A DNA stretch of 64,000 bases from an uncultured Oscillospiraceae bacterium (GTDB lineage: Bacteria > Bacillota > Clostridia > Oscillospirales > Oscillospiraceae), in contig CALWXH010000001.1 of NCBI GenBank assembly GCA_944385465.1, forward strand, positions 104,425 through 168,424, in the 5' to 3' direction. Under the pieces are notes generated by a model. That model was not told the origin of the DNA. It did not search any database and was given only the letters and a program-made list of their open reading frames with translations. This document shows, one piece after another, positions 23,032-50,272 of this stretch (within the stretch, counting starts at the first letter, position 1; each line of letters begins with the position of its first letter). Both the position numbers and the translations under genes were made by a program.

Positions 23032-23095
23032 AAGAAAATGGCTCATCTTCTTATGGCGGGTAAAGAGGGAAAAAACAAAAGGAGGAACATCCGAA
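23032..23095 (+). repeat. Shared SLH 5' block, copy 1 (palindrome plus ribosome binding site)
   Basis: The block starts with an imperfect palindrome (AAGAAAATG, GCT, CATCTTCTT). It continues through a purine-rich stretch to AAAAGGAGG and on into the signal-peptide codons. It is nearly identical in five places in the window (starts at 23032, 32681 minus, 42666, about 50272 minus and 63919), while the DNA upstream differs in each. A one-base difference here breaks the frame of the upstream ATG, which supports starting the protein at MRNLKK. Confidence 0.85.
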
Positions 23096-25657
23096 ATGAG
23101 AAATCTGAAGAAGATTCTCGCGCTGGTTCTGGCTCTGATGATGACCGTCTCCCTGATGGTTGTCGCCAGTGCCGCCAGCATTGAGGACTACGAGGACGCT
23201 GACAGCGTCAGCGATCAGTATGTGGAAGCTGTCGACGTTCTCACCGGCATGGGCCTGTTTAAGGGCGACGAGAACGGCTTCCGCCCCCAGGACCCCATCA
23301 ACCGCGCTGAAGTGTCCACCATCATCTACCGCATGATGAGCAAGGACACCGACGACAGCGACGTCGGAGCCTACGCCGGCTATGCCGACGAGAGCTTCAC
23401 CGACCTGGACACCCTGGGCTGGAACGCCGACGGCTACATCGGCTACTCCACCAACCTGAAGTATGTCATCGGCAACGGGGACGGCACCTTCAACCCCACC
23501 GGCAACATCACCGGTTACGAGCTGCTGACCATCCTGATGCGTCTGGTGGGCTATGACGAGAACGACGAGTTCGCTGAGAACTGGCCCATCAACGTCATGA
23601 AGGTGGTGGATGAGCTCGGCCTGCTGGCCGCCGGCTACATCGACAACCTGAACGCCCCCCTCACCCGTGAGGAGGTCGCCTATCTGATCTTTGCGACCCT
23701 CACCCAGGTTCAGAAGGTGTACTACACCCCTGCCTTCGGCTACCGGCCCTATCCGAATGCCAATATGGGCACCACCATCGGTAAGGACAACTTCAAGATG
23801 GATCAGTCTGACCTCGAGTCCATCGATGTCTGGGGCCGTCCCGGCTATGTCTGGAGCTATAACACCGGCAACAAGTCCACCACCATCGAGAGCGAGCCCG
23901 TGTACTCCAACACCGTGGCTGTCACCGAGTGCGACCTGTCCACCGCTCTGGGCCTGAAGGATGACGTGAATATGGTCACCTACACCAACGGTGAGGACAA
24001 CGAGACCCGTAACGTCAATGTGAATCCCGTGGATCGTCGCACTACTCTGGGCGGCCAGGGCACTGTGATGGAGGTCTACAAGGTTGCCGGTTATGACTCC
24101 GCTGCTACTGGCGGCGTGTCCAACTACTCTGGCTACATGGTTGTCTACATCGACACCTATCTGGCTGAGGTTGTCCGTGTTGTCGACGCTACCTATGACT
24201 CCGCCAACCACCTGAAGACTGAGGCTGCTCTGTACCTGAAGGTGTATGACGGCCGCGGCACTTCCTACGTGGTGGAGTACAACGAAGATGTCAACTACAC
24301 CTACTCTGTGGGCGACATGCTGCTGGTCAATGCCGTGGCTAAGACTGGCGCTCATACCACCAGCCTGCTCAGCACTTCCGCTGTTACCAGCTTCAACGGC
24401 AACAACTACTTTACCGCCTACCATATGGATATTCTGGGCGTTGCCACCAGCGTTGTGGGCACTCAGACCATCATCTGGAGCGATAAGGATCAGCACACCG
24501 TGAACGGCGAGACCAAGCCTGACGCCGCCCAGTACAACCACGACGCTGCCGGCAAGACCGCCAACAAGCAGTTCGTCTGGTATTTCGACCAGTTCGGCAA
24601 CCTGATCGGCTCCTTCGACTATGTCACCATCAAGAGCTACGCCACCATCTCCAGCATCCAGTGGATCAACCCGACCAGCACCAACGGCTATGCCCAGGCC
24701 ACTCTGGTGTACGCTGACGGCACCACCGCTTCCAAGATCGTCTACTCCATCGATCGGGATGGCAACGGCACCGTGGCTACCAATGAGGTTCTGAGCTACA
24801 CCGCTTTCCAGGGTGACTACAGCACTGGTTCTGTTTCTGCCAACTACTCCTACAACAATGTCGCTGGCCAGTCCTACATCGGCGTACACCTGTTTGAGGT
24901 GACCGAGGGTGCCAACAACGTGGTGACCCTGAAGCAGATCCAGACTCCTGTGACCGGCGCCACTGTGACCAAGGGCCAGACCACCATCACTGGCACCAAC
25001 GGTCCTGTGTACCTGGACAACAGCACTCAGATCCTGGTCCGGACCACCGCTGCTGACGGCAGCTATGTGTACACTCCCTACACCGGCTACAGCGCCATGC
25101 CCAGCCTGACTAGTGCCACTGTTTACGCTGTGAACACCGATGCTGACGCCGCTGCCGAGTACGTGTATATGTACGGCACTGCTGCTACCAGCACCAGCGA
25201 GATCGTGGTGTATGTGGACTCCTTGAGCTATGCTGAAGATGTCTCCAGACCCGGTTACGCTGTGCTGAAGGACGCCTATGTAAATGGTGTGAAGACTGAT
25301 GTCACCATCGATCTGGGCTGGCTCAGCTTGATGAACACTGGTTATACCTACTACATGAACGATCCTGACGGCAATGGCATCTATGATGGTTCCGGCAACT
25401 TGGTTGCCCTCACCGGCATGGCTGCTGCCAAGAACTTTGCCGACAGCAAGACCAGCGCCATCTGGCTGGACAACTACACCCTGCTGGCTGATGCCATTCA
25501 GGACACCACCACTACCGTGAACTATGCCACTGCTGGCGCCACTGTTTACAACTACAGTGACAACAGCAACCTGGGTGACGCCGATACCGACGTGGTTCTG
25601 GTGTATAACACCACCACTAAAGTTGTCTCCGCTGTCATCGTTGTTGATGCGATCTAA
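23096..25657 (+). CDS. SLH-domain surface protein 1
   Basis: This 853-residue exported protein has a signal peptide MRNLKKILALVLALMM... ending ASA-A near residue 26. Three S-layer-homology domains follow to about residue 205, with the usual motifs read as NRAE, TGYE and TREE; these bind wall polysaccharide. A conserved family segment follows (VWGRPGYVWSYNTG, then CDLSTALG and VYIDTYLAEV), then a long Thr/Tyr/Asp-rich beta region ending VVSAVIVVDAI. It is probably an S-layer or surface adhesin component. The start is set by AAAAGGAGG. It is convergent with an MQQT gene across a shared terminator. Four paralogues are in the window. Confidence 0.93.
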   Translation: MRNLKKILALVLALMMTVSLMVVASAASIEDYEDADSVSDQYVEAVDVLTGMGLFKGDENGFRPQDPINRAEVSTIIYRMMSKDTDDSDVGAYAGYADESFTDLDTLGWNADGYIGYSTNLKYVIGNGDGTFNPTGNITGYELLTILMRLVGYDENDEFAENWPINVMKVVDELGLLAAGYIDNLNAPLTREEVAYLIFATLTQVQKVYYTPAFGYRPYPNANMGTTIGKDNFKMDQSDLESIDVWGRPGYVWSYNTGNKSTTIESEPVYSNTVAVTECDLSTALGLKDDVNMVTYTNGEDNETRNVNVNPVDRRTTLGGQGTVMEVYKVAGYDSAATGGVSNYSGYMVVYIDTYLAEVVRVVDATYDSANHLKTEAALYLKVYDGRGTSYVVEYNEDVNYTYSVGDMLLVNAVAKTGAHTTSLLSTSAVTSFNGNNYFTAYHMDILGVATSVVGTQTIIWSDKDQHTVNGETKPDAAQYNHDAAGKTANKQFVWYFDQFGNLIGSFDYVTIKSYATISSIQWINPTSTNGYAQATLVYADGTTASKIVYSIDRDGNGTVATNEVLSYTAFQGDYSTGSVSANYSYNNVAGQSYIGVHLFEVTEGANNVVTLKQIQTPVTGATVTKGQTTITGTNGPVYLDNSTQILVRTTAADGSYVYTPYTGYSAMPSLTSATVYAVNTDADAAAEYVYMYGTAATSTSEIVVYVDSLSYAEDVSRPGYAVLKDAYVNGVKTDVTIDLGWLSLMNTGYTYYMNDPDGNGIYDGSGNLVALTGMAAAKNFADSKTSAIWLDNYTLLADAIQDTTTTVNYATAGATVYNYSDNSNLGDADTDVVLVYNTTTKVVSAVIVVDAI

Positions 25658-25738: not shown

Positions 25739-26191
25739 TCAATATCCCAGAACTACATAGACATATGTTTTTCCCTTCTCATTGAGCTGCATACTGGCGC
25801 TTTCAGAATACCATTGTACACTGTAGTCTGACCAAGTAAATGGTATGGAATAGCCGCCCCCGATGATTCCGGCGGTCATGGGCCGCATGACCAGGGTAGG
25901 CCAGTATAGGCCGGACGGCTCGATGGTACCCACCATAATCAGCACCGGGGTAAAGCCGACCTGGATCACGTTGGGGCTGCTCTCCCCGTGGGTGCCCGTC
26001 CCAATGTAGGTGCCGAAGGCCATGCGGCAGTTGTAGTTCCCGGCGCCCAGGTCAGCGGTGACCGCTGTCAGGCTTTCCTCCATTGTCTCCAACTGCTCCT
26101 CCACCTTCTCCATGTTGTCGTTGAGGGGAGTGGGCGAGAAATCGTCCGTCCCCTCGATGAGCTTGAATTGATATTTGCTGGTTTGTTGCAT
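25739..26191 (-). CDS. MQQT-family small tail-fibre-like protein A (type 1)
   Basis: This 150-residue protein has a conserved N-terminus MQQTSKYQFKLIEGTDDFSP, a short helical, coiled-coil-like stretch near residues 27-48, and a beta-rich C-terminal domain. That domain has the pattern FGTYIGTGTHGESSPN ... VGFTPVLIMV and ends in YVYVVLGY. Such C-terminal domains resemble tips of Firmicute phage tail fibres, but no phage structural genes are near. There is no signal peptide. Its N-terminus is identical to that of copy D for 33 residues while the rest diverges. The ribosome binding site lies in a hairpin. The function is unknown; a trimeric binding protein is a guess. Confidence 0.8.
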   Translation of the reverse strand: MQQTSKYQFKLIEGTDDFSPTPLNDNMEKVEEQLETMEESLTAVTADLGAGNYNCRMAFGTYIGTGTHGESSPNVIQVGFTPVLIMVGTIEPSGLYWPTLVMRPMTAGIIGGGYSIPFTWSDYSVQWYSESASMQLNEKGKTYVYVVLGY

Positions 26192-26193
26192 CT

Positions 26194-26221
26194 TTCATCC
26201 CTCCACTACGGGAGGGATGAA
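26194..26221 (-). promoter_or_regulatory. Hairpin sequestering the ribosome binding site of MQQT gene A
   Basis: A perfect 11-bp stem (TTCATCCCTCC with GGAGGGATGAA) has the minus-strand GGAGGGATGAA arm just before the ATG, so the ribosome binding site is base-paired. Confidence 0.75.
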
Positions 26222-26260
26222 GGTGGTTTGTTGCCTGGTTTCATGCAACGAAAAAGAAAA

Positions 26261-26576
26261 ATTTCCCCGCCCTGCGGGCGGGGAAATCCAGGCAAACGGG
26301 AGGGCTGGGGTGGTTGGGGATGTGAACGATCCGCCCTACACGGTAGAAAACCCGGAAAATCTGAGGAATAGGGCGGTTGGGAAAGCGAATGATCCACCCC
26401 GCATGGTGGGGAAAACCGAGCAAATCAGGAAGGCGGGGCCGGGCGCTGGACGGACGAAACGTCCGTCCTCGCCGGGGCCCTGCCGGGGCGGCGGGTTGTC
26501 CGTGGCCGGAAACGCCGGAACGTGCAGGGAAAATTAGGTGCTGAAACTTTTCTGTCTGCCCCGCGGGCGGGGAAAT
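26261..26576. repeat. Insertion between duplicated GC hairpins, with tandem units of about 63 bp
   Basis: A perfect hairpin ATTTCCCCGCCC-TGC-GGGCGGGGAAAT (26261-26287) is partly repeated as GCCCCGCGGGCGGGGAAAT (26558-26576). The 289 bp in between, absent from the equivalent place near 47119-47146 in the second module, hold two and a half degenerate tandem units. Each carries GATCC(G/A)CCC, GGTAGAAAACC- or GGTGGGGAAAACC-like, and AAATC(T/A)GAGGAA-like segments (26312-26374 and 26375-26440). No gene is seen. Confidence 0.6.
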
Positions 26577-26600
26577 TCCGCGCCGGATATGTCCCGGGCC

Positions 26601-26617
26601 GTACAACGTTGCACGCT
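26601..26617. repeat. 17-bp direct repeat, left boundary of the abiH cassette
   Basis: GTACAACGTTGCACGCT contains the near-palindrome TRCAACGTTGCA. It recurs in the same orientation at 28442-28458 (GTGCAACGTTGCACGCT) on the other side of abiH, and once, inverted, in the second module (47079-47095). Confidence 0.8.
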
Positions 26618-26632
26618 GCCGGCCGCCATGTT

Positions 26633-26661
26633 TTGACAAAACGCGGGCCCAGGCGTAGAAT
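26633..26661 (+). promoter_or_regulatory. Sigma-A promoter of abiH-like gene
   Basis: TTGACA (26633-26638) and TAGAAT (26656-26661) are 17 bp apart, 46 bp upstream of the start codon and inside the cassette bounded by the 17-bp repeats. Confidence 0.8.
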
Positions 26662-26707
26662 CAGAACTGATAAAACACTCCCCTGAGGGGAACAGGAGGA
26701 CCTGCGA

Positions 26708-28438
26708 ATGAAAGGATCGGAAAAGCACACCCCCGGCGGGCTGCCACTCACCCAGGAGCTGACCTGTACGGTCTGCGGTGGGAAATTCCTGTTCCGGGGC
26801 ATTGAGCGCCAGCGGTTTGCCCGGTGGGGCTGGCAGCCACCCAAGCGCTGCCCACTGTGCCGCCAGGCGGAAAAGGAGCGCCAGCAGCAGGAGGAAGAGC
26901 GGCTGGAACGGGAGGAATGGCAGCGCCGGACTGCCCAGGAGAAATTGGAATTTGAGACAGAACTGGTGTCCTGGAACGTGATTCCGGTAAAAAATGTCGT
27001 CCCCAGAAGCGACCGGGTGCTGTACATTCTGGGCAACGGCTTCGATCTGATGCACCGGGTGCGCTCCAGCTACTACGCGTTCCGGGACACGCTGGGAAAG
27101 AACAGCAACCTGCGCCAGTCGCTGGAGAACTATCTGACTCCGGCGGATATCTGGGCGGATTTTGAGAGCGCCCTGGCCCATCTGGACGTGCGGGCCATGG
27201 CCAGCCTGTCCAGGGTGGATAGTTGCCTTGATGTGGCGGGGTTCTACGAAAAGGACGCCGGCGCCGCTGCGTATTGCTGCGGCCTGGATCTGGCGGTCGA
27301 ACCGATGATCACCATCTCGGATCACTTGCACCGGCGCTTTCAGGACTGGGTGGACCAGCTGACAGTCGGGACAAAAGATCGCCCCCTGGCAGGGATGTTC
27401 CGCCGCGGCAAGGTGCTGTGCTTCAATTACACGGAATTTGTGGAGCAGCTCTATGGCATTCCGGAGGAAAACGTCTGCTACATCCACGGCTGCCGCCGGA
27501 AAAAGAAAGGCCGGCCCCGGGAGCGGCTGGTGCTGGGGCACATGCCCGGGGCCAGCGATGCGGCCTTTGACTTCCGGGACAACTCCGCAGTCTGGAAACG
27601 CAATCCCCGCCGGCGGCATCTGGTGGAACTGGCCCGGATGCAGGTCCTGCAGAGAATTGCCGATCAGGACGTGATACTGACCAAGGACAGCGAAGAGATC
27701 ATCGCCGCCCATCAGGACTTTTTCGATGGGCTAAAGGACATCGAGGATATTATCGTGATCGGGCACTCCTTTTTCCCGGTGGACTGGGGTTATTTCACCC
27801 GGGTGGCCGCCTCGCTGGCGGAGCCGGAAAACGTGCGTTGGCACTTCAGCTGCCACGGCCTGCAGGGGCTGAAAAATCTGGAGCGGCTGCTGCCGGAGCT
27901 GAACCTGACTCCGGCGGAGGTTTCGGTGTTCCGCACGGATGGCATCTCCACCGCGCCGCTCAGCGCCTCGGGCAGTCCGGTGGCGCACCATCCCACGGAA
28001 AAGATCCGGGGCGTCTCTCCGGATGGCAGGTGGGCGGCAAAATCTCTGGACAAGCTGCTGATGATCACGGAGCAGGCACAGGATGTCATTGACTGCGAGA
28101 TTGTCCTCTCCACACCCTTCAGCCGGGCATATTTCACGCCGGATGGGCAATCCCTGTTCATTTTTATCCGGGGCGTGGACCCGGGGGTGCTGCTGTTTTC
28201 CCTCCGGGACAGCCATTGGCGGTTTGTGGCCGAACTGATGGGCGCGTCCGGCCAGAGCCTGGTCAATCCCCGGCTGAAGCACGTGTTTCTCACCGGGGAA
28301 GAGGTGGCCTTTGTATACCATGGCCGGGTGCGCCGGTACCGGCTGGACACCGGAGAGCAGACAGAGAACCGTGTCATCCGGGACGGGGAAAGCCTGACCC
28401 TTCCGGGTGAAGATGTGCGCTCACAGTTCATGGGATAG
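26708..28438 (+). CDS. AbiH-family protein with N-terminal zinc ribbon and C-terminal propeller-like domain
   Basis: This 576-residue protein has three parts. Residues 20-51 form a zinc ribbon (C20-x2-C23 ... C48-x2-C51, TCTVCGGKFLFRGIERQRF...KRCPLCR) and a charged helix follows to about residue 89. The AbiH core (phage abortive-infection family) spans about 103-400. It has LYILGNGFDL (residues 105-114), CFNYTEFVEQLYG (FNYT at 239), YIHG (258) and IVIGHSFFPVDWGYF (GHS at 352-354). The last 150 residues contain repeated SPDGRW/TPDGQSLFIF-type beta segments like a partial beta-propeller. AGGAGG precedes the ATG. It has its own promoter and lies exactly between two 17-bp repeats in the surface-protein module. 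Anti-phage function is inferred from the family only. Confidence 0.85.
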   Translation: MKGSEKHTPGGLPLTQELTCTVCGGKFLFRGIERQRFARWGWQPPKRCPLCRQAEKERQQQEEERLEREEWQRRTAQEKLEFETELVSWNVIPVKNVVPRSDRVLYILGNGFDLMHRVRSSYYAFRDTLGKNSNLRQSLENYLTPADIWADFESALAHLDVRAMASLSRVDSCLDVAGFYEKDAGAAAYCCGLDLAVEPMITISDHLHRRFQDWVDQLTVGTKDRPLAGMFRRGKVLCFNYTEFVEQLYGIPEENVCYIHGCRRKKKGRPRERLVLGHMPGASDAAFDFRDNSAVWKRNPRRRHLVELARMQVLQRIADQDVILTKDSEEIIAAHQDFFDGLKDIEDIIVIGHSFFPVDWGYFTRVAASLAEPENVRWHFSCHGLQGLKNLERLLPELNLTPAEVSVFRTDGISTAPLSASGSPVAHHPTEKIRGVSPDGRWAAKSLDKLLMITEQAQDVIDCEIVLSTPFSRAYFTPDGQSLFIFIRGVDPGVLLFSLRDSHWRFVAELMGASGQSLVNPRLKHVFLTGEEVAFVYHGRVRRYRLDTGEQTENRVIRDGESLTLPGEDVRSQFMG

Positions 28439-28441
28439 GCT

Positions 28442-28458
28442 GTGCAACGTTGCACGCT
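28442..28458. repeat. 17-bp direct repeat, right boundary of the abiH cassette
   Basis: GTGCAACGTTGCACGCT begins three bases after the abiH stop codon. It is followed by ATCATTTTTTAG, exactly as in the single-copy site of the second module (minus strand, 47095 downwards). Confidence 0.85.
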
Positions 28459-28576
28459 ATCATTTTTTAGAGCTCCGTCGGAGGCAGGACGGACATTTTT
28501 CCCGGAAGCAAGCCGCCCCGCCAGCCTTCCCGGCAAGCGGTGCGCCCCGGAAGGGCCGCCCTCCGCAGGCGGCACC

Positions 28577-28862: not shown

Positions 28863-28934
28863 TTAGGGCCCCGCCGGAGGCGGGGCACTAAAAAATCCAT
28901 TTTCGTTGCACCCAAATGGGCAACAAAACCCGGT

Positions 28935-28960
28935 TTATCCCTCCCTTATGGGAGGGATAA
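28935..28960 (+). promoter_or_regulatory. Hairpin sequestering the ribosome binding site of MQQT gene B
   Basis: TTATCCCTCCC and GGGAGGGATAA form a perfect 11-bp stem with a TTAT loop. The GGAGGG site lies in the 3' arm, eight bases before the ATG. Confidence 0.8.
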
Positions 28961-28964
28961 TATT

Positions 28965-29486
28965 ATGCAACAGACAACCAAATACCAATTCAACTTAGTG
29001 GACGCCACCGACGACTTTTCCCCGGACCCGCTGAACCAGAACGCCCAGAAGGCGGAGACCCTGATCGCCGGCCTGGAGACGGATCTGGCGGAGGGAATGG
29101 AAGAGGTGACGGACACCCTGGCCGAGCTCACCGCCAACGTGGGCAGCACCGGCCACAACGCCCGCATTGTCTACGGCTCTTATGTGGGTACGGGCACCTA
29201 CGGCCGCAACAGCAAGAACACCCTGAGCTTCGACTTCACCCCGGTGCTGGTGGTGACCAGCTCCAATGAGTACCACAACCACATCACCAACCCCACCATC
29301 TTCCTGCGGGGGCGCACCATTGCCTGTTCGGAAAACCTGTACAGCAACCTGGATCAGTGCCAAAAGCAGACGGTGAGCTGGTCGGACACCGGCGTCACCT
29401 GGTACTGCACGGATGACGCATGGGGTCAGAACAACGTCTCAGGGCGCACTTATTTCTATGTGGCCATCGGATATGACTCGGAATAA
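28965..29486 (+). CDS. MQQT-family small tail-fibre-like protein B (type 2)
   Basis: This 173-residue protein begins MQQTTKYQFNLVDATDDFSP. It has a helical stretch near residues 28-65 (AETLIAGLETDLAEGMEEV) and a beta-rich C-terminus (YGSYVGTGTYGRNSKNTL, FDFTPVLVV, and YFYVAIGYDSE at the end). Its N-terminus matches copy C, not copies A and D. The frame is open far upstream through the tandem array, and in copy C too. The conserved hairpin/ribosome binding site directly before MQQT, and its presence in the type 1 copies, argue for this start. It is convergent with SLH gene 2. Function unknown. Confidence 0.8.
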   Translation: MQQTTKYQFNLVDATDDFSPDPLNQNAQKAETLIAGLETDLAEGMEEVTDTLAELTANVGSTGHNARIVYGSYVGTGTYGRNSKNTLSFDFTPVLVVTSSNEYHNHITNPTIFLRGRTIACSENLYSNLDQCQKQTVSWSDTGVTWYCTDDAWGQNNVSGRTYFYVAIGYDSE

Positions 29487-29576: not shown

Positions 29577-32500
29577 TTAGGAAGCGGTATTGTACACATA
29601 GTACCGGACGGTGTTATCCTCAGCAGTGACCTTAATGAGGACATAACCACCATTCAGCTGAGTGGTGTCGGTCACAGTAACAGAATCGCGCTCAGCCAAA
29701 TTCTTCTCTGCATTTTCAATGGTATCACCAGAGCCGATTTCAACTGTAGCCAAAGGATTCTTGGCCTGGACAGTCATCGTGAACTTGTTCTGAGCACCAA
29801 GCTTAACAGCGTTTTTCTCAGCAGCCTCTAATGTGTCACTGCCGCCGCTGGGAATGGTCACATCAGTACCGTCAACTTTAACGCTGGCCAACTGGGCGTT
29901 GCTGCTCTTCACGTTCCACTTCAGAATGACAGTGTAGCGCTCGGAATCAGTGCCGGCCTCGTTCCAAACAGTGACAGTTCTCTGATTATCAGTGTCATCT
30001 ACGTTCACTGTAACAGTGTGGAGCTTGGTATCAGTGCCGTTGTACACGATCACGCTGTTGGCATCGTTGGCAATGTAGGTCAGCTCGTCGGAAGTAGCGT
30101 CCTTAACAGAATTGACAGTGAAGGTCTTGGTGTCGGCATCATAGGTTACGGTGCCGTCCTTGGCATCAACGGTCAGGGCAACGCTCTCGTCCAGCTTGGT
30201 GCCAACGTAAACCACAGCGGCGTGGGTGGTCTTGATGTCATCGCAGATGACCCAGATGCCCTTGCTGGCGTCGATAACGCCATTGTTGCCTACGATCACA
30301 GTGTCAGCGTCCACAGTGTAGCTGTTGACAGCGTTGTACAGGGTGTTGCCGCTGTAGGTCACGGAGGACATGTAGTCGCAAACGGGCTCAATGTCTTCCT
30401 GCTCGTTCATCAGGTACAGCTCATCCACGAAGCCGTAGAAGCCGGCATAGGGATTGAGCTCCCAGGTCACATGGAACAGCTTGCCCACGTTGGCGGCCAG
30501 GTACTTCACGTTGTCCTCATTGGTCAGAATGTTGCGATCCACGCCGTCCACGTTCACGGTCATCTCGAAGGTGTTGGGGATACCAGCGTAACGGCCGTAG
30601 CTGGCGGTGGTGACAAACAGGTGGCTGCCCAGCTCGGCCTCGGCCACGCCGTTCTTCACGTACACCCGGGTGGCAACACCGTTGGTGGCGGTGTAGAAGA
30701 TCTCGGTGTTCTGGGCCAGCTCGGGCAGGTTGGCGCGGTTGTAGGAGCTGTAGGTGCCATCGCCGTTGCGCACCAGGAACTGGGTGTTGGCGGTGACGGT
30801 CAGCCGGGTACTGCCAGTCAGAAGGATGGCGCTGGAGTTGTTGTCCAGGGTGGCGTGGTAATCATAACCAACGGTGCCGCCGGCAGTGGTGGTCTCATCC
30901 AGGTCCACGGTGCCGTCGTCGTTGGTGGTGACCACATACAGGGCATAGCCCTCATAGAAGTCGTTGTACGTGCTGTCGCTGGACACACCGGGGAAGGCTC
31001 TGGTAGCATCACTCAGAACGGGAGCCTCGTCCTGTTTGCTAGCAACAGTGCTCCAATCATTCCCGTTGTAGGAGGGCCATCTGTTTGCAGGGATATCCTT
31101 GTCCAGACCGTCGAACTCGTCCACCACCACAGTGGCCTCAGAGCCGTCCATGTACACCAGGGTGGCCTCGGCATAGCCGGGAGTGCCCACCTTCCAGACG
31201 ATGTCCTTCAGGACAGCGTAGCTGGTGCGGTTCAGCTCAACGTTGCCGATGACATTGCCGAACTGATCCTTGAACCAGGTGAAGTTCTCGACCTTGGTGC
31301 GGCCAGCCTGATCCAGGTAGAAGTTGACAGCGTCGTTGTAAACAGTGTTGTTGATGGTGTGAGTCTCGTCGTTCCAGGTGAGGTAGGTCTGAGCGCCCAC
31401 GAAGGACTCAGCGGCCTGCACGGGCTTGACAGCATCCTTGGGATCCTTGGCAGCCTCATTGATGTTCACCAGGATGTACTCGTCCACGGTGTAGTCAATG
31501 CTCTTCATCGTCCAGAGATCAGCGGTGGCGTCGTCATACCAGACAGACAGATCGCTGTACGCGGCGGTGGCGGGGTGACCCTCGGAGTCAGTGGTGGCCT
31601 CGTGCACGGCATCGACCCGGGCCAGGTAGGTGTCGATGATCACCAGCTCGTCAGCGTACACCTCGATCCAGGTGCCCTGGGCGCCGATGGTCTTGGCCTG
31701 ATCCAGGGGATCAAAGTTCACGCCGGCCTTTACACCATTGGTGTAGACGTCCAGAGTGAAGTCGTCGTCCTGATCCAGATCCAGAGCGATGTCGCACTCG
31801 GAGATAGCCTTGTCATAGGTGGCAACGGGGGTCTCGGGGAAGATGGCCACGGTGCCGGCGTCGGTGCTCCACTCAGTCTGGGGGCGGCCCCAGATGTCGT
31901 GGGCGTTCTCGTTGCAGTCCAGGCCCAGCTGCTCCTCACCCATGGTGGTGGTGTTCACCTCATAGTGGCCGCTCCACCCGGTCTCATGCCAGGTGTTGGC
32001 GTTCAGAGCGTTGAAGATCATCTGAGCGGCCTGCTCACGGGTGACGGCGTTGCTCAGCACCACCTCGCTGCCCAGGCCCTTGAAGATGCCGGTGATCTCG
32101 CCCAGCACGGCGGCGTCGGTAGTCCAGTTGTCGCCACCGATCTCGTTGAAGTTGTTGTCACGGCCCAGAGCGCGCACCAGCATGGTGGTCAGCTCGTAGC
32201 CGGTGATGGCAGCTTCGGGGCTGTAGGTGCCGTCGCCGTTGCCCTGCACCCAGGCGTTGGTGTAGGCGTAGTTGATGTAGCCGGTGAACCACTCGTCAGA
32301 GGGCACGTCGTCGAACAGCTGGGTGGTGGGCAGTTCGTCCACCTCAGCGTCGGTGACGTCAGTGGTGAGCAGCCGGTACAGCAGCACGGCCACCTCGGCA
32401 CGGCTCAGGCTGTCCTGAGGACGGAAAGTGTCCTCACCGGCGCCGTCGCCCTGATAGATGCCGATTCCGGACAGCACTTCCACTGCCACGGCATACTTGT

Positions 32501-32618
32501 CGCTGATTTCTTCCTTATCATCGTAGTTGTCGATGTTGGCGGCACTGGCAACGACCATCAGAGAGACGGTCATCATCAGAGCCAGAACCAGCGCGAGAAT
32601 CTTCTTCAGATTTCTCAT
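29577..32618 (-). CDS. SLH-domain surface protein 2
   Basis: This 1013-residue exported protein has the shared signal peptide MRNLKKILALVLALMMTVSL. Three SLH domains follow to about residue 215 (SRAE, TGYE and TREQ motifs), then the family segment DIWGRPQTEWSTDAG and VIIDTYLARV. A long beta-rich body carries extra C-terminal modules not seen in copies 1 and 4, including NVKSSNAQLASVKVDGTDVT and a final KVTAEDNTVRYYVYNTAS, which look like immunoglobulin-like beta domains. AAAAGGAGG precedes the start. An upstream in-frame ATG exists but is not conserved in all copies. It is convergent with MQQT gene B. Its upstream side is insulated by several hairpins. Confidence 0.93.
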   Translation of the reverse strand: MRNLKKILALVLALMMTVSLMVVASAANIDNYDDKEEISDKYAVAVEVLSGIGIYQGDGAGEDTFRPQDSLSRAEVAVLLYRLLTTDVTDAEVDELPTTQLFDDVPSDEWFTGYINYAYTNAWVQGNGDGTYSPEAAITGYELTTMLVRALGRDNNFNEIGGDNWTTDAAVLGEITGIFKGLGSEVVLSNAVTREQAAQMIFNALNANTWHETGWSGHYEVNTTTMGEEQLGLDCNENAHDIWGRPQTEWSTDAGTVAIFPETPVATYDKAISECDIALDLDQDDDFTLDVYTNGVKAGVNFDPLDQAKTIGAQGTWIEVYADELVIIDTYLARVDAVHEATTDSEGHPATAAYSDLSVWYDDATADLWTMKSIDYTVDEYILVNINEAAKDPKDAVKPVQAAESFVGAQTYLTWNDETHTINNTVYNDAVNFYLDQAGRTKVENFTWFKDQFGNVIGNVELNRTSYAVLKDIVWKVGTPGYAEATLVYMDGSEATVVVDEFDGLDKDIPANRWPSYNGNDWSTVASKQDEAPVLSDATRAFPGVSSDSTYNDFYEGYALYVVTTNDDGTVDLDETTTAGGTVGYDYHATLDNNSSAILLTGSTRLTVTANTQFLVRNGDGTYSSYNRANLPELAQNTEIFYTATNGVATRVYVKNGVAEAELGSHLFVTTASYGRYAGIPNTFEMTVNVDGVDRNILTNEDNVKYLAANVGKLFHVTWELNPYAGFYGFVDELYLMNEQEDIEPVCDYMSSVTYSGNTLYNAVNSYTVDADTVIVGNNGVIDASKGIWVICDDIKTTHAAVVYVGTKLDESVALTVDAKDGTVTYDADTKTFTVNSVKDATSDELTYIANDANSVIVYNGTDTKLHTVTVNVDDTDNQRTVTVWNEAGTDSERYTVILKWNVKSSNAQLASVKVDGTDVTIPSGGSDTLEAAEKNAVKLGAQNKFTMTVQAKNPLATVEIGSGDTIENAEKNLAERDSVTVTDTTQLNGGYVLIKVTAEDNTVRYYVYNTAS

Positions 32619-32660
32619 TTCGGATGTTCCTCCTTTTGTTTTTTCCCTCTTACCCGCCAC

Positions 32661-32681
32661 AAGAAGATGAGCCATTTTCTT
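32661..32681 (-). repeat. Shared SLH 5' block palindrome, copy 2
   Basis: This is the palindrome AAGAAAATG-GCT-CATCTTCTT on the minus strand, the point where similarity to the other SLH leaders begins. The upstream sequence is unique. Confidence 0.8.
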
Positions 32682-42665: not shown

Positions 42666-42728
42666 AAGAAAATGGCTCATCTTCTTATGGCGGGTGAGAG
42701 GGAAAAAACAAAAGGAGGAACATCCGAA
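42666..42728 (+). repeat. Shared SLH 5' block, copy 3
   Basis: Palindrome AAGAAAATG-GCT-CATCTTCTT (42666-42686), purine-rich stretch and AAAAGGAGG, matching the other SLH leaders. The DNA between the parE promoter and this block (42520-42665) shows no clear promoter or gene. Confidence 0.85.
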
Positions 42729-45700
42729 ATGAGAAATCTGAAGAAGATTCTCGCGCTGGTTCTGGCGCTGATGATGGTGGTCTCCACCATGGTTTTCGCC
42801 AGCGCTGCCAGCCTCGAGGACTATGTCGATGGGGATGAAGTCAGCGCCGAGTACGCGGAAGCTGTCGAAGTCCTGACCGGCATGGGCATCTTCAAGGGCG
42901 ATGAGGAGGGCTTCCGCCCCCAGGACACCATCACCCGCGCTGAGGTCTCCACCTCCGTCTACCGCGTGCTGAGCGGTGACGTGACCGACTCCAAGGTGGA
43001 GGTCTGGAAGGAATACACCATGTTTGACGACGTGGCTTCCGACGCCTGGTACGCCGGCTTCGTGAACTACGCCGCCAACGTGAAGTGGGTCATCGGTGTT
43101 GGCAACAACAAGTTTGACCCCAACAGCGACGTGACCGGTTACGAGATGCTGGCCATCCTGCTGCGCGCCCTGGGCTACGACAAGAACCAGGAGTTCGCCA
43201 ACAGCGACGACTGGCGCATCGAGGTCGCCACCATCGCTGAGGAGATCGGCCTGACCGACGTGCTGGTTTCTGCCAACCCGAACCGGGCCATGACCCGTGA
43301 GCAGATTGCCGCCCTCATGTTCCAGGCTCTCCAGACCAGCAAGGTGAAGTACACCCTGGCTTACGGCTACCGTCCCACCGGCGAGCTGCTGGGCGACGAG
43401 CTGTTCGACCTGAAGAAGGTTGACCTGACCGAGGACGCTTGGGGCCGTCCCAGCTACGGCTGGAGCTACAGCACCGGCGACAAGGGCACCTACTGGGAGT
43501 ATGCCTCCACCCTGTACACCACCCCCGTGGCTGAGTGCGACGTGGTGGACGAGACTGGCGTGACCACCGCTGCCACCTACACCAACGGCAACGAGGGCAC
43601 CGTCACCCTGAGCGCCAACGCCACCAAGGCCACCATCGGCGAGCAGGGCCGTCAGACCTATGTGTACAACCTGCCCGGCACCATGACCGACCGCATCGTG
43701 TACATCGACACCTTCCTGGCTCTGGTGACCGACGTGACCACCACTGAGGTGGATGTCAACGGCCATCTGGCCCGCCAGGCCCTGCTCCAGCTGCGGGTGT
43801 ACAACGGTGTCAACGGCCAGAACGGCCAGCTGGTGTACAAGGTTTCTGACACCGACTGGAACTATGTCCGGGGTGAGATGCTGCTGGTGAACGCTGTCAC
43901 TACCAGCGCCGCCTCCTCCGCTGTGGATGTCACCGCTGAAACCCCGCTGGGCTACGGCAACCTCTACAACGTGGCCGACCACCTGGAGATCGTGGACAAG
44001 GCCAGCTCGTTTGTGGGCGCTCAGACCTACAACCAGTGGAACGCCAACACCCACACCATCAACGGCACCGTCTATAACGACGCGCTGTTCTATGTCCGGG
44101 ACGACGCCGGCATTGACCGCACCGAGAACTTCAACTGGTGGCTGGATCAGTACGGCAACGTCATCGGCTCCACCGCCATTGACCGCAACAGCTACGCCGT
44201 GCTGAAGGATCTGATCTGGATCGACGGCACCCCCGGCTACGCCCAGGCCACCCTGGTGAACATGGACGGCACTGAGTACACCGCCACCGTGGCCCTCATC
44301 GACGGCGACGGCAACTATGTGGCCGCTACCGTGTCCGGCTTCAACTGGGGCGCCATCGACTGCGTGCCCACCCTGTCTGACTCCTTCCAGGGCAACCCCT
44401 TCAACACCCTTACGAGCATTGCCCAGGTCTCTTCCAACAGCAACTACAACGGCACCTACCTGGGCTACGCCCTGTATCAGGTGACCACCCTGGACAACGG
44501 CACCGTGGTGCTGACCGGCTCCACCGCTGAGGGCCAGACCGACACCGTCATCAACTATGTGGCCAACGGCACCCTGTCCGCCAATGCCAGCACCATCCTG
44601 GCCAATGACGGATCCGCCCTGGCCCACATTGACGACAGCACCCGCATCATCGTGAACAATGGCGACGGCACCTACTCCGCCTACACCCGGAGCACCCTGC
44701 CCAACCTGGCCGGTCGGTCCATGGAGATCTTCTACTCCGTGGTGGACGGCGCGTTCACCCAGAACGTGTACATCAAGCGCGCTGTGGCGCAGGCTACCTT
44801 CGGCGACCACCTGTTCACCACCAGCAGCAGCAACTATGGCCATGCCACTGCCGACTTCGCTGACGGCCGGCAGGTGTGGGAGATCCCCGTGGTCGTGGAC
44901 GGCGTTTCCACCACCATCCGCACCATCAACACCAACATCGCTGCCGCTCTGACCGCCCAGGGCAACCAGGGCAAGCTGTTCCACGTGACCTTCGATCAGA
45001 CTCCTCTGGACACCGATGGCTCCGTCAACGAGACCTACGGCTTTGTCACCGACGTGGATCTGGTCACTGAGGCCACCGATGGCAACAATTGTGACTACCT
45101 GTATCCCTATGACGAGATCCACCTGGGCACCGGCACCATCGAGTGCGACGATGTGAGCTACAACGTCTCCAGCGCCACCACCATCGTGGAGCTGGACGGC
45201 ACCACCGTGGCTTACAATGTCCAGACCCTGGATGAAGCTCTGAAGAATGAGCAGCTGGCCGTGTGGGTTGTGGAGAGCAACAACCCCGCCACCAACGTGG
45301 CTGCCACCGTCTACATCGGCACCAAGCTGAGCGATAACACCGCTCTGGTCAATCCCACCGCCGTGGTGGGCACCGGCGATGACGCCAAGACCTACACCGG
45401 CACCTGGGACACCGCTCGCGACACCTACACCATCACCGTGCCCCATGGCACCACCACCTGGACTCTGACCGCCAGCGCCAATGCCGACTACGCTTACATC
45501 CTGACTGGCACCAACGGTGGCACCGGCGACTGGCTGAACCTCAACGGCCACGCCAAGAATGGTACCGCGACCTTCGAGGACAGCACCATTGTTTGGGCTG
45601 CCAGCAACACTGCCACTTATAGTGTAACTGTGTTCGCTGAGAATGATGCTGTGAGCAAGGGCTATACCATTAATGTCGTGGAGGCTCCCGCTCCCAACCA

Positions 45701-46070
45701 GGCTCTGAACATGATCGACTCCGTGACCCTGAACAACGATGCTCACATCCTGACGGTTCCCACCTCTTATGAGACCGCCGCCGAGGCTGTGAACAACGCT
45801 GTGAAGATCACCCTGACCACCGATGCTGCTCAGAGCTATGCCCTGACCGTCAACACCAAGCTGGTTGGCGGAACCACTCCCGCTTGGGGCGCGATTCAGG
45901 GGTATGGCGACAAGGCCGCTGCTCTGGCCTGCGACCTGGACGCCAGTGATAAGAGTTCTTCTCTGAACGGTACTCACACCTTTACCACCGTGGGCGAGGG
46001 CTACTACATTGTCATCATGACTGAGGTCAACGGTGATGTTGCTTACCACGCCTACTACTTCGGCAAGTAA
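42729..46070 (+). CDS. SLH-domain surface protein 3
   Basis: At 1113 residues this is the longest of the family. It has the signal peptide MRNLKKILALVLALMMVVST (slightly different after residue 16), three SLH domains to about residue 215 (TRAE, TGYE and TREQ), the family segment DAWGRPSYGWSYSTG and IVYIDTFLALV, and a long beta-rich body. The last 270 residues add modules (TYTGTWDTARDTYTITVPHG, then ALNMIDSVTLNNDAHILTVP and a final VNGDVAYHAYYFGK) absent from copies 1 and 4. It is surface-located and probably wall-polysaccharide bound. It converges on MQQT gene C. Confidence 0.93.
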   Translation: MRNLKKILALVLALMMVVSTMVFASAASLEDYVDGDEVSAEYAEAVEVLTGMGIFKGDEEGFRPQDTITRAEVSTSVYRVLSGDVTDSKVEVWKEYTMFDDVASDAWYAGFVNYAANVKWVIGVGNNKFDPNSDVTGYEMLAILLRALGYDKNQEFANSDDWRIEVATIAEEIGLTDVLVSANPNRAMTREQIAALMFQALQTSKVKYTLAYGYRPTGELLGDELFDLKKVDLTEDAWGRPSYGWSYSTGDKGTYWEYASTLYTTPVAECDVVDETGVTTAATYTNGNEGTVTLSANATKATIGEQGRQTYVYNLPGTMTDRIVYIDTFLALVTDVTTTEVDVNGHLARQALLQLRVYNGVNGQNGQLVYKVSDTDWNYVRGEMLLVNAVTTSAASSAVDVTAETPLGYGNLYNVADHLEIVDKASSFVGAQTYNQWNANTHTINGTVYNDALFYVRDDAGIDRTENFNWWLDQYGNVIGSTAIDRNSYAVLKDLIWIDGTPGYAQATLVNMDGTEYTATVALIDGDGNYVAATVSGFNWGAIDCVPTLSDSFQGNPFNTLTSIAQVSSNSNYNGTYLGYALYQVTTLDNGTVVLTGSTAEGQTDTVINYVANGTLSANASTILANDGSALAHIDDSTRIIVNNGDGTYSAYTRSTLPNLAGRSMEIFYSVVDGAFTQNVYIKRAVAQATFGDHLFTTSSSNYGHATADFADGRQVWEIPVVVDGVSTTIRTINTNIAAALTAQGNQGKLFHVTFDQTPLDTDGSVNETYGFVTDVDLVTEATDGNNCDYLYPYDEIHLGTGTIECDDVSYNVSSATTIVELDGTTVAYNVQTLDEALKNEQLAVWVVESNNPATNVAATVYIGTKLSDNTALVNPTAVVGTGDDAKTYTGTWDTARDTYTITVPHGTTTWTLTASANADYAYILTGTNGGTGDWLNLNGHAKNGTATFEDSTIVWAASNTATYSVTVFAENDAVSKGYTINVVEAPAPNQALNMIDSVTLNNDAHILTVPTSYETAAEAVNNAVKITLTTDAAQSYALTVNTKLVGGTTPAWGAIQGYGDKAAALACDLDASDKSSSLNGTHTFTTVGEGYYIVIMTEVNGDVAYHAYYFGK

Positions 46071-46152: not shown

Positions 46153-46665
46153 TTATGCGACACCGTCATCATAGCCCAGCGCGACATAGAAGTACGTGCG
46201 GTTGCTGGCGTTCATCTGGAATTCATTGTTGTTATCCCGGCTGTACCAGCTCACGCTGTGTCCCTGCCAGGTGACATAGAGAAAAAAGGAATCATTGGTG
46301 ACGCAGGATTTTCCCACCTCAATGCCACTGTAGAAAATCCCCGGCCAGCAATTAAAACTTGGCTCTGTGGCAAACAGGATCACCATTGGTTTGAAGCCAA
46401 AGGTGAGGGTATTGGGGCTTCCGCTGCCTGCGCTTCCCGTTCCCGTATAGCTCCCCCAGGCGATGCGGCAGGTGTGCCCGCCGCTGCCCAGAGCCTCCTC
46501 CAGCTCGTCCAGCTGCCCGGAAATCTGGGTTTCCAGGGCCGCCAGGTCTTCTTCCACCCCCTCGATCAAATCCTCCGTCTTTTGGGCGTTCTGGTTCAGC
46601 GGCGTGGGGGAAAAGTCGTCGGTGGCGTCCACTAAGTTGAATTGGTATTTGGTTGTCTGTTGCAT
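46153..46665 (-). CDS. MQQT-family small tail-fibre-like protein C (type 2)
   Basis: This 170-residue protein begins MQQTTKYQFNLVDATDDFSP like copy B. It has a coiled-coil-like stretch near residues 28-60 (TEDLIEGVEEDLAALETQIS) and a beta-rich end (WGSYTGTGSAGSGSPNTL, FGFKPMVILF, and YFYVALGYDDGVA). The C-terminal half differs strongly from copy B apart from these framework residues. No signal peptide. The ribosome binding site lies within an 11-bp hairpin. It is convergent with SLH gene 3 and divergent from MQQT gene D across array II. Function unknown. Confidence 0.8.
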   Translation of the reverse strand: MQQTTKYQFNLVDATDDFSPTPLNQNAQKTEDLIEGVEEDLAALETQISGQLDELEEALGSGGHTCRIAWGSYTGTGSAGSGSPNTLTFGFKPMVILFATEPSFNCWPGIFYSGIEVGKSCVTNDSFFLYVTWQGHSVSWYSRDNNNEFQMNASNRTYFYVALGYDDGVA

Positions 46666-46669
46666 AATA

Positions 46670-46695
46670 TTATCCCTCCCATATGGGAGGGATAA
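46670..46695 (-). promoter_or_regulatory. Hairpin sequestering the ribosome binding site of MQQT gene C
   Basis: TTATCCCTCCC and GGGAGGGATAA pair perfectly around ATAT, the same 11-bp arms as at 28935-28960. The minus-strand GGAGGG is in the stem. Confidence 0.8.
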
Positions 46696-46774
46696 ACAGC
46701 GGTTTGTTGCACCCTTCTGTGCAACAAAAATGATTTTTTTAGGGCCCCGCCTCCGGCGGGGCCCTAAACACATA

Positions 46775-47078: not shown

Positions 47079-47095
47079 AGCGTGCAACGTTGCAC
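47079..47095. repeat. Single 17-bp repeat, apparent empty site for the abiH cassette
   Basis: On the minus strand GTGCAACGTTGCACGCT is preceded by CCGCGCCGGATATTTGCCCG and followed by ATCATTTTTTAG. The left flank matches the left side of abiH and the right flank matches its right side, so this locus looks like the same site without the insert. Confidence 0.8.
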
Positions 47096-47213: not shown

Positions 47214-47217
47214 AAAG

Positions 47218-47682
47218 ATGCAACAAACCAGCAAATATCAGTTCAAGCTCATCGAGGGGACGGACGATTTCTCGCCCACACCACTCAACGACAACATGGA
47301 GAAGGTGGAGGAACAGTTTGAAAGCGTGGAAGAGAGCATTGCCGGGGTGTTGAGCGCCATGGGTTCCCATGGCAAGACCGCCCGCATCCAATGGGGGAGC
47401 TACACCGGAGACGGGCAGTACGGGGCCAGCCACCCCACCAGTCTCAGCTTTGGCTTTACCCCGGCCGCAGTGTTTCTGGCCTGCGCCGACGACATCTATT
47501 CCAGGCCAACTGTGCTGCTGCGCAGCATGTCCACGCTGCCCGGCCCCGGTGGGAATTTTGCCATCTCCCTGACTTGGAGCGGCAGCGGACTATCCTGGTA
47601 TTCCACCTACGACGCCTCGGCCCAGGGTAGCTCCGATGGCGTCACGTATTACTATGTGGCAGTGGGCTACGAGGCGGAATGA
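47218..47682 (+). CDS. MQQT-family small tail-fibre-like protein D (type 1)
   Basis: This 154-residue protein begins MQQTSKYQFKLIEGTDDFSP like copy A. A helical stretch (EKVEEQFESVEESIAGVLSA) follows, then a beta-rich domain with WGSYTGDGQYGASHPTSLSF, GFTPAAVFL and the ending YYYVAVGYEAE. Compared with copy A the N-terminus is identical for 33 residues, while the C-terminal domain is largely different, as if heads were exchanged or diversified. No signal peptide or phage neighbour is seen. It converges on SLH gene 4 across a terminator. Function unknown. Confidence 0.8.
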   Translation: MQQTSKYQFKLIEGTDDFSPTPLNDNMEKVEEQFESVEESIAGVLSAMGSHGKTARIQWGSYTGDGQYGASHPTSLSFGFTPAAVFLACADDIYSRPTVLLRSMSTLPGPGGNFAISLTWSGSGLSWYSTYDASAQGSSDGVTYYYVAVGYEAE

Positions 47683-47753: not shown

Positions 47754-50210
47754 TTAGGTCAGGTCGGCATCCACCACGTAGATCAGGTCAACGTAACCAT
47801 AGTTGTCGTACTGGACAGCGATGCCGCAGTCAACGGTGTACTGGCCGAGCACGCTCATGCTGAGGGCGTCGCAGGTGCCGGTGGTGGCGTTCACCAGGTA
47901 GATGACGCAGTCATCGGCAACCGTCTTCTTGGCGCCATCCAGCTCCATAACGCCAGCCACGGGAGCGGTCCAGCTGCCCTTGTTGGCCTCGTTGACGGTC
48001 TCCTTCACCACGGTGTCCCAACCGTTGGTGGTGTGGTTGGTGTAGCTGTACAGGCCGGTGCCCTTACCAGTGACGTTGGCAGCGGCGGCGTTGGTGACCT
48101 GCAGCTGGCCGGGAGCGCCGTTGATCAGGGCCTTGGTGTAGGTGTGGAAGTCGTCGGAGATATCCACATAGTCACCCACGGTGGTGAGGAAGGCGTAGTT
48201 CTTCACGTCCTGGGTGGCGGGCTCCACCTGCTTGTTGGCGTTCTTCACCAGCACCACGTTGGCGTTCGTGCCATCCTTCAGAACCTCGATGTCCAGCTGA
48301 GTCTCAGCGCCGGTCTCGAAGTTGCCGGCATCAATGGTCAGATCCTTGATGTTCTTGAAGCCGGTGACGATGGAGTAGTTGGTAAAGACATAGGTCTTGG
48401 TGGCGTTCTGATAGGTGTAGTTGGCGATGAAGAACACCGTGTCATCATCCACCAGGTTGCTGCTGTTGATGGCGTTGGTCTCGCCGCTCTCCACGATCTG
48501 GCAGTTGGCAGTGATGCCCTTCTCGTAGGTGTACACGCCGTCGCCGTCAGCGTCGGTGTAGCTGATCAGGGTGTTCAGGCCCACGGCATTGGCGGCGGTG
48601 TCAGCCATATCCTCGTCCTGATAGTACACGCCATTAGTGGCAGTGGAATCGGTGAGATACACCTTGTCAGTGCTGCCGTCAGCCTGGAGAACGTCGGCCA
48701 CTACAACATGCTTGTTCAGCGCGATGCGCTCCACATCCAGGCCGGTGACCACGCCGTAGCCGGCGGTAGCAACGGAAACCTTGGCAAGCTTCAGCACGTT
48801 GCCGTGGGCGTCAGTCCATACGGTGTAGGTGCTGCCAATCGCGGTGGTGTCCAGCTTCGTGCCGGCGAAGGTGTAGTTGTACAGATAGCTGACGCCGTTG
48901 GTGCCCACAAAGCCAGCCTCGTCGCCGTTGGCGGCCTGAGTGATGGCCTTCACGGTGACCATGGTGGCAGACAGCTCAGTGAGGTTATAGGCGGGGTAGG
49001 TAGACAGCGGGCTGCCCAGGTACTGATCACCCTCGGTGATCTTGTTCAGAGACAGGACGTCGCCCTTGCTATAGGGATAGTCAGCGGTGTAGTCCTGTAC
49101 CGTGTACTGGACGGACTCATTCGTATAACCGTCACCAGAAATGGTGTAGGTCATGGTGGCGGGCTTCCAGGTATGGGAGGCCACGTCGTAGGTGCGGTCG
49201 GTCACGCTGTCCACCACGGCCACAAAGGTGTCGATGTAGACGATGGTGCCCTCGGTGGGCTTGTTGGCATAGATCTCGGTGCGGCGGCCCTGCTCACCCA
49301 GGGTGGACACCCGGTTGAGAGGATTGATGGTGTCGGCGGTCTCGTTGTTCTCGCCGTTGGTGTACACCTTGTAGTCAGCCTTCAGAGCGGCACCCAGGTC
49401 GGTGGCAATGTCGCACTCGGTCTCAGCGGTGTAGTAGACAGCCACGGGCTCATCCTCGAGGAAGGCCACGTTACTGTTGCTGTCGGTATACCACTGATCG
49501 CCGGGGCGGCCCCACTCATCCCGGTCACGCTTGCTGCCCAGGCCGATGAGGGTATCACCGGTGGGACGGTAGTTGCCGCTCCAGTTCCAGTAAGTTTGGA
49601 TCTGCAGAGCGTTGAAGATCATCTGAGCGGTCTGCTCACGGGTGGCGTCCTTGCTCATGAAGACGGAGGGCAGGTTCTCGTTGAGGCCCAGCTTGGCGGC
49701 CAGCACAGAGGCGTCCAGCGCCCAGTCGTCGCCGCTGATCTCCTCGCCCTCGGCGTCGCGGCCCAGAACACGCAGCAGCATGGTGGCCAGCTCAGCGCCA
49801 GTGACGTTGTTCTCGGGGCTGAAGGTGCCGTCGCCGTTGCCGATGACGTAGCCCTCAACATAGGCGTAGTTGACATAGCCAGCGTACCACTGGTCTTTGG
49901 ACACGTCGGTGAACTCGTCATAGCCGGCGTAGGTGTCCACCTTGGAACCGTCATAGTCACCGGTGGTCAGGCGGTACAGCAGGGTGGCAACCTCGGCCCG
50001 GGACAGGTTTTCCTGGGGGCGGAAGGTGCCCTCGGTGTCGCCCTGGTACATACCAATACCGGCGAGCACCTCAACGGCTTCAGCGTAAGTCTCATCGATC
50101 TGCTCCTTATCGCTGTAGTCGTCATAGCTGGCGGCACTGGCGACAACCATCAGGGAGACGGTCATCATCAGAGCCAGAACCAGCGCGAGAATCTTCTTCA
50201 GATTTCTCAT
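47754..50210 (-). CDS. SLH-domain surface protein 4
   Basis: This 818-residue exported protein has the shared signal peptide MRNLKKILALVLALMMTVSL. Three SLH domains follow to about residue 205 (SRAE, TGAE and TREQ), then the family segment DEWGRPGDQWYTDSN, CDIATDLGAALKADYKVYTN and IVYIDTFVAVV, and a beta-rich body ending GYVDLIYVVDADLT. It is the shortest of the family and closest in layout to copy 1. It has the best promoter of the SLH genes, 114 bp upstream. It converges on MQQT gene D. Confidence 0.93.
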   Translation of the reverse strand: MRNLKKILALVLALMMTVSLMVVASAASYDDYSDKEQIDETYAEAVEVLAGIGMYQGDTEGTFRPQENLSRAEVATLLYRLTTGDYDGSKVDTYAGYDEFTDVSKDQWYAGYVNYAYVEGYVIGNGDGTFSPENNVTGAELATMLLRVLGRDAEGEEISGDDWALDASVLAAKLGLNENLPSVFMSKDATREQTAQMIFNALQIQTYWNWSGNYRPTGDTLIGLGSKRDRDEWGRPGDQWYTDSNSNVAFLEDEPVAVYYTAETECDIATDLGAALKADYKVYTNGENNETADTINPLNRVSTLGEQGRRTEIYANKPTEGTIVYIDTFVAVVDSVTDRTYDVASHTWKPATMTYTISGDGYTNESVQYTVQDYTADYPYSKGDVLSLNKITEGDQYLGSPLSTYPAYNLTELSATMVTVKAITQAANGDEAGFVGTNGVSYLYNYTFAGTKLDTTAIGSTYTVWTDAHGNVLKLAKVSVATAGYGVVTGLDVERIALNKHVVVADVLQADGSTDKVYLTDSTATNGVYYQDEDMADTAANAVGLNTLISYTDADGDGVYTYEKGITANCQIVESGETNAINSSNLVDDDTVFFIANYTYQNATKTYVFTNYSIVTGFKNIKDLTIDAGNFETGAETQLDIEVLKDGTNANVVLVKNANKQVEPATQDVKNYAFLTTVGDYVDISDDFHTYTKALINGAPGQLQVTNAAAANVTGKGTGLYSYTNHTTNGWDTVVKETVNEANKGSWTAPVAGVMELDGAKKTVADDCVIYLVNATTGTCDALSMSVLGQYTVDCGIAVQYDNYGYVDLIYVVDADLT

Positions 50211-50253
50211 TTCGGATGTTCCTCCTTTTGTTTTTTCCCTCTTACCCGCCATA

Positions 50254-50272
50254 AGAAGATGAGCCATCTTCT
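50254..50272 (-). repeat. Shared SLH 5' block palindrome, copy 4
   Basis: AGAAGATG-GCT-CATCTTCT, a perfect 8-bp stem on the minus strand, followed by the same purine-rich leader and ribosome binding site. Confidence 0.8.

Follow-up and report, generated by a model that had tools for sequence, protein, structure and literature searches.

The window (the whole 64-kb stretch of DNA that was analysed) contains two related gene modules, each built as SLH> <MQQT ... MQQT> <SLH from S-layer-homology (SLH) genes and small tail-fibre-like MQQT genes, and the two modules are mutually inverted (Table 1). The centre of module I is occupied by a promoter-like site and a single gene, abiH, with a copy of the 17-mer GTRCAACGTTGCACGCT on either side. 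The centre of module II contains the 17-mer once, on the minus strand owing to the inversion of that module. The anatomy of the motif is that of a spacerless 14-bp palindrome, and the copies upstream of MQQT genes A (~410 bp) and B (~520 bp) point toward the MQQT starts. The only tRNA found in the window by ARAGORN is a tRNA-Gly at 33079, which was also the only Rfam match at gathering level between 22500 and 51000; among six other loci, Rfam returned two lysine riboswitches. The 5' ends of the SLH genes are nearly identical (23063-23191, 32518-32651, 42667-42835, 50115-50243 and 63951-64000; up to 98% over 129 nt, with 50 nt identical at the contig end), which suggests recombination among the surface genes.

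Table 1. Coordinates of the features of modules I and II.
Feature	Position	Strand	Remarks
SLH-domain surface protein gene 1	23096..25657	+	convergent with A
MQQT gene A	25739..26191	-	small tail-fibre-like protein
MQQT leaders	26189-26266, 28890-28967, 46663-46740, 47143-47220	-, +, -, +	predicted hairpin covering the ribosome site
Second length difference (module I longer by 289 bp)	26274..26576	+	two 14-bp copies of GCGGGCGGGGAAAT
Left copy of palindromic motif, GTACAACGTTGCACGCT	26601..26617	+	end of gene A unit
abiH promoter-like site, TTGACA-17-TAGAAT	26633..26661	+	11/12
abiH, 576 aa	26708..28438	+	stop 28436-28438; right motif copy begins 3 bases on
Right copy of palindromic motif, GTGCAACGTTGCACGCT	28442..28458	+	end of gene B unit; followed by ATCATTTTTT
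Gene B leader	28890..28964	+	GTTGCAC..GGCAAC hairpin and ribosome-site hairpin; similar before A, C and D
MQQT gene B	28965..29486	+	
SLH-domain surface protein gene 2	29577..32675	-	convergent with B
SLH-domain surface protein gene 3	42672..46070	+	convergent with D
MQQT gene D	46153..46665	-	
Single fused palindrome copy, module II	47079..47095	-	without abiH
MQQT gene C	47218..47682	+	structure-modelled
SLH-domain surface protein gene 4	47754..50267	-	convergent with C

With up to three mismatches the 17-mer gave 7 matches, against a shuffle mean of 0.22 and a largest shuffle count of 2, palindromes being scored on both strands. The 14-bp core GTGCAACGTTGCAC, with at most one mismatch, is present at only three places in the 2,118,638-base genome, all of them here; under a uniform base model, 0.34 sites would be expected in the genome and 0.0006 partners at 2 kb or less from any given copy. 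Folded as single strands, the palindrome copies do not stand out clearly from shuffles (z -1.2 to +1.9), which gives no support to a strong hairpin function. The first-pass annotation had described the 17-bp palindromic repeats around promoter and abiH, the empty site in module II with both flanks matching, and a 1.84-kb unit that holds one complete transcription unit with no transposase or integrase inside it, and all of this was confirmed. The right flanks of modules I and II are 89% identical over 123 nt (28442-28564 and 46973-47095) and the left flanks 83% over 60 nt (26558-26617 and 47079-47138), both values being those of ungapped repeats, as MAFFT misaligned the palindrome and a gap-tolerant alignment split the left side arbitrarily. 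Since the flanks match on both sides, the breakpoints of the 1.84-kb presence/absence difference fall precisely at the palindrome. The target is present in one copy in the empty module II and in two in the occupied module I, the modules being paralogous and not allelic. The copies of GCGGGCGGGGAAAT at the second length difference begin at 26274 and 26563, and one related copy is present in module II. This 289-bp segment is bounded by GC-rich hairpin repeats and, by eye, contains a tandem-like pair of ~60-75 bp. On the right, the tandem-like DNA has a third length difference; there are gaps on both sides, and module II is net shorter.

The product of abiH is like the AbiH abortive-infection proteins (PF14253) in its AbiH domain (residues 105-380; 146.3 bits against a cut-off of 30.9) and its PADLOC match to AbiH (5e-20). 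It is unlike them in adding an N-terminal treble-clef zinc domain (PF13451; 25.2 bits, just over the cut-off of 24) and ~195 C-terminal residues; two relatives in the family, at 48-49% identity, have both additions. The C-terminal residues (380-576) have no Pfam match. From its sequence, abiH would act as an ordinary antiphage gene from its own promoter, and the right motif copy may perhaps help to end its transcript. The gene is present in 1 of 42 genomes of the genus, the one described here, and in 4 of 400 sampled genomes of the family, this one included; two of the other three family matches are full-length at ~50% identity and one is partial at 26%. An alignment-based search of named genomes gave 16 relatives, mostly from Clostridia and one from an Atopobiaceae MAG, a single-protein search of named genomes gave none, and none was found in the viral contigs. 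Two of the relatives, L072 and L076, apparently lie on the same contigs as G081 and G411, so that there are fewer relatives than the two lists suggest. The neighbouring genes differ between the relatives L066 and L067 (two listed). A tRNA-borne island was also considered and rejected, ARAGORN finding no tRNA in L066 or L067.

The 17-bp repeat had been taken for a cassette repeat of abiH. This was rejected: the core is present at the borders of abiH in 0 of 15 relatives scanned (of the 16, L087 was left out; L076 and L080 have little DNA upstream of abiH), and it marks the ends of MQQT/SLH units instead. Only one of the relatives' loci, L083, contains the core anywhere, at 996 and, inside the gene itself, at 6954. 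A test for direct repeats in the flanks was valid for 13 relatives (void for L077 and L086) and gave a single 11-bp pair in L084, at unmatched distances, which was taken as chance. On these comparisons, with the gene occurring so sporadically and the relatives having no core at their borders, abiH is a putative defence gene of patchy distribution to which the palindrome does not belong.

Of 33 distinct MQQT starts in the other genomes of the genus, 18 (two of which share one site) have the core CAACGTTG in the 600 bp upstream, where 0.29 sites were expected, and 0 of 33 have it downstream, as a control; these genus counts are not phylogenetically independent. When the murE, nhaC and fused groups were collapsed by hand, 9 of 24 MQQT starts retained the core, still far above chance. 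The exact core is missing upstream of 15 of the 33 starts, and G004 and G018, whose MQQT proteins are nearest to those of the window, are without the motif altogether. The pattern GTRCAACGTTGMM gave 28 site rows outside the window's own genome, in 16 of 41 genomes, and loci were examined for 27 of them. Of the sites examined, read as GTRCAACGTTG, 24 of 27 are directed at an MQQT gene whose start lies at a distance of 82-729 bp, the exceptions being L110, L120 and L132. The window copies continue inward with CAC or TAC and the copy of G015 with CAT; the common inner flank elsewhere is ACYTT. An extended 16-mer is present in 5 of 400 family genomes, three of them outside the genus, and these three have no MQQT gene in the 3 kb fetched. 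Among viral contigs the 17-mer was found in 3 and the 16-mer in 25; as these matches came without an MQQT or SLH hit they were taken as chance, and a phage origin of the motif was rejected. Judged by these sequence associations, the motif belongs to MQQT/SLH surface-gene units and marks many of their ends. The first-pass annotation had named wide scattering of the repeat without cassettes as evidence against a cassette mechanism; the repeat is indeed common without abiH, but it is not scattered, since it sits at unit ends.

In most of 17 loci the motif lies directly behind the neighbouring gene, such as at the stop codon of murE or the terminator of nhaC (a gene we take to be nhaC from its translation); in L020 and in G040 C79 it apparently lies, by eye, ahead of the start of a divergent gene. 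Where a unit follows murE directly, with its MQQT start at most 400 bp away, the core is present at the end of murE in 11 of 12 loci; it is so in 0 of 18 in which no unit was seen, three of which (L144, L155 and L160) end ~400 bases or less behind murE. The sample covers 30 loci out of 42 genomes with murE, the pattern scored was CAAC[GA]TTG, and the twelfth unit locus, L143, has CAATGTTG. Fisher's test of the contrast gives 2e-7, with no correction for shared ancestry; the murE-adjacent motif doubles as the codons ending murE and the loci share ancestry, so that the counts are not independent. Compared over 60 bp, the flanks of the nhaC group are 73-92% identical outside the motif and 50-67% inside, and those of the murE group 68-85% outside and 50-72% inside, against a random baseline of 56 +/- 4%; further in, at 60-120 bp from the motif, the shared leader starts, and there 6 of 21 pairs of the murE group are at least 80% identical. 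The opposite is seen in G034, where C13 and C55 (L125 and L131) are identical inside from the motif at 176 of 176 positions and unrelated outside (60%), and in the pairs G009/G039 (93% inside, 63% outside) and G030/G032 (83% inside, 63% outside). G034 C13 and G040 C79 resemble each other in their outer flanks, but on the G034 side this resemblance ends 41 bp away from the motif. The identical 176-base block of L125 and L131 is followed by divergence within the MQQT gene, and it is possibly a gene-conversion block. Sequences alike inside and unrelated outside cannot be ascribed to constraint on the host gene, so the motif is the limit of the shared block; it looks like a unit terminus or a recombination junction.

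Complete units between inverted motif copies, 8.5-9.1 kb apart, were found in L048, L051 and L058. All three hold MQQT and SLH genes, and L048 and L058 also small toxin-like ORFs; no evident recombinase was seen in their plain ORF lists, which were read without a profile scan, and no duplication of a host target was found (longest shared word 3-4). Fused, empty palindromes are present in module II and in G015, which is another species. In G031 two motif copies stand head to head with 32 nt between the cores; to their left comes a toxin-like gene, and no MQQT gene is reached before the end of the contig. The head-to-head copies of module I are 1.82 kb apart, and abiH is the only full gene seen between two such copies. 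The annotation had proposed a search for further genes in this position; with the 14-mer or the 17-mer as the paired repeat, searches of 42 and 300 genomes gave no other gene. The place of abiH with respect to the motif is the one that murE or nhaC has elsewhere.

The structure model of MQQT protein C (pLDDT 84, pTM 0.64) matched five predicted phage proteins of BFVD at E ≤ 0.001, the best of them named tail fibre (E 2e-8, TM 0.55, 38% identity). Sequence and fold searches of the PDB with the MQQT proteins gave nothing at E ≤ 0.001, and there was no Pfam family at cut-off and no PHROGs family at E ≤ 0.1. In most MQQT leaders a GTTGCAC..GTGCAAC-like hairpin precedes the ribosome-site hairpin. 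In the latter, 10 of 10 predicted pairs have both sides changed in at least one of 30 sequences (pair counts only, with no shuffle control), and three leaders fold beyond shuffles (z -3.9 to -5.2). Toxin-like ORFs of 27-31 aa are present between motif and MQQT leader in 7 of 20 loci (L041, L042, L046, L048, L049, L056 and L058), with a remnant in L055 and further copies elsewhere in L042. Three of the peptides have no Pfam or NCBIfam match, and no toxin-like ORF was found in the window.

We propose that modular MQQT/SLH surface-gene units end in this palindrome, which would be their boundary element. Each module would have two such units head to head, with their ends fused in one palindrome in module II; in module I the promoter and abiH, a putative single-gene phage-defence unit, would lie between units that each keep a boundary copy. 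Most likely the unit ends in module I would have been fused too when abiH arrived, through recombination at the palindrome, with the activity supplied in trans and a palindrome copy left on each side. We put the chance that the palindrome is the unit boundary and that abiH came in by this route at about even. We infer the motif as crossover point, the gain in module I and any enzyme, and a recombination role for the junction is suggested by the mosaic structure. With a palindromic motif, unit ends that are inverted to each other look like direct repeats as well, and the direct-repeat appearance of the abiH borders is partly explained in this way; the GCT behind both copies, which is not required of inverted ends, would slightly favour a true duplication. 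The 289-bp neighbour counts against boundary recombination, since with its unrelated short repeat it fits generic short-repeat deletion or duplication. It is also one of the two reasons why loss from module II would be a serious rival to gain in module I, the other being the CTATCATTTTTT retained in module II although there is no abiH there to terminate. On the loss reading abiH already stood between the ends of the two units when the modules had yet to diverge, or did so in some earlier arrangement; slipped replication, or recombination of the two palindromes as short repeats, then removed it from module II and left the ends fused. Bacteria commonly lose DNA that lies between short direct repeats. 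Module II is net shorter at each of the three length differences between the centres, and for two of these module I has short direct repeats at the borders. The GATAG at the end of abiH can pair with CTATC behind the right copy, before TTTTTT, in a terminator-like arrangement, though this hairpin is weak (z -1.2 against shuffles). Such a history, however, needs a gain and then a loss where one gain would be simpler, abiH is present in 0 of the 41 other genus genomes, and the fused junction of G015 is without it; we regard the loss as possible without thinking it probable.

A regulatory role of the motif, as an operator or part of a promoter, with the neighbourhood of abiH due to an unrelated illegitimate event, would account for several features of the units. 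In those with toxin-like genes the TTGAC of the motif serves as the -35 box in a good promoter, such as the TTGACT-17-TATAAT recognised by eye in L004, the half-site GTTGCAC/GTGCAAC returns in the leader hairpin ahead of MQQT genes, and identity would likewise drop inside if a conserved host gene had a functional site at its edge. It leaves unexplained the identical insides with unrelated outsides, as in the G034 pair, and the start and end of the abiH segment at the two copies, and we hold it to be quite improbable. Transfer of abiH by a known cassette system (an integron, p-dif/XerCD modules or a transposon with target duplication) is very improbable. In outline the abiH segment is similar, being a promoter and gene with short direct repeats on either side and no recombinase of its own; against such a transfer stand the absence of an attC-length structure, of an 11-6-11 dif-like site and of terminal inverted repeats, and the lack of a second pair of motif copies in the genome. 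Inverted repeats are not seen at the interior ends of the abiH segment either, since 460 of 500 random pairs score as high. Beyond the entry of abiH by trans recombination at the unit boundary, it is conceivable, though we think it unlikely, that within this one genus an undescribed trans-acting, site-specific recombination system, with CAACGTTG as the core of its palindromic site, delimits the units, allows them to move from one chromosomal place to another and loads their ends with single guard genes (type-I-toxin-like, abiH).

Should the motif prove to be a true end of the units, it would offer a handle on the rearrangement of S-layer-like and tail-fibre-like surface genes, and on why defence and toxin-like genes adjoin surface genes. 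One odd gene position would then become a testable rule on what lies between head-to-head boundary motifs. Within the titles and opening lines of abstracts on AbiH, p-dif modules, S-layer recombination and the CAACGTTG palindrome, no description of such an element was found. An integron cassette consists of one gene followed by a palindromic site, and its insertion duplicates the core; the attC site behind the gene is ~57-141 bp long and has R''/R' core boxes. The abiH segment is like such a cassette in its one gene, the palindromic site behind it and the duplicated core, and unlike it in having no attC-like structure, no array, and an abiH with its own promoter. An integron gene cassette was rejected, as there is only the spacerless 14-bp palindrome and GTGCAAC does not fit RYYYAAC. 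A transposon or MITE with target duplication was rejected for want of terminal inverted repeats, although the copy count (one and two) fits. The sites of p-dif modules are XerC/XerD sites of 28 bp with 11-6-11 anatomy, thus with a 6-bp spacer, and are present on both sides of the module. In outline, the dif modules of Acinetobacter plasmids are genes between short site-specific recombination sites (PMC12907356, PMC6449649). The locus resembles them, so far as that outline goes, in genes between short sites that would be shuffled as modules; it differs in a spacerless 14-bp palindrome located at the ends of chromosomal surface-gene units, with one defence gene only, and a p-dif module was rejected because the site is not a 28-bp one with a 6-bp spacer. 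In the sap system of Campylobacter fetus, surface-protein genes are rearranged at defined sites. CwpV of C. difficile is summarised as a phase-variable clostridial surface protein (PMC2784873). Unlike in these two, the boundary motif lies outside the genes here, and no inversion was seen; like them, the units described here are surface-protein genes whose DNA would be rearranged at defined sites.
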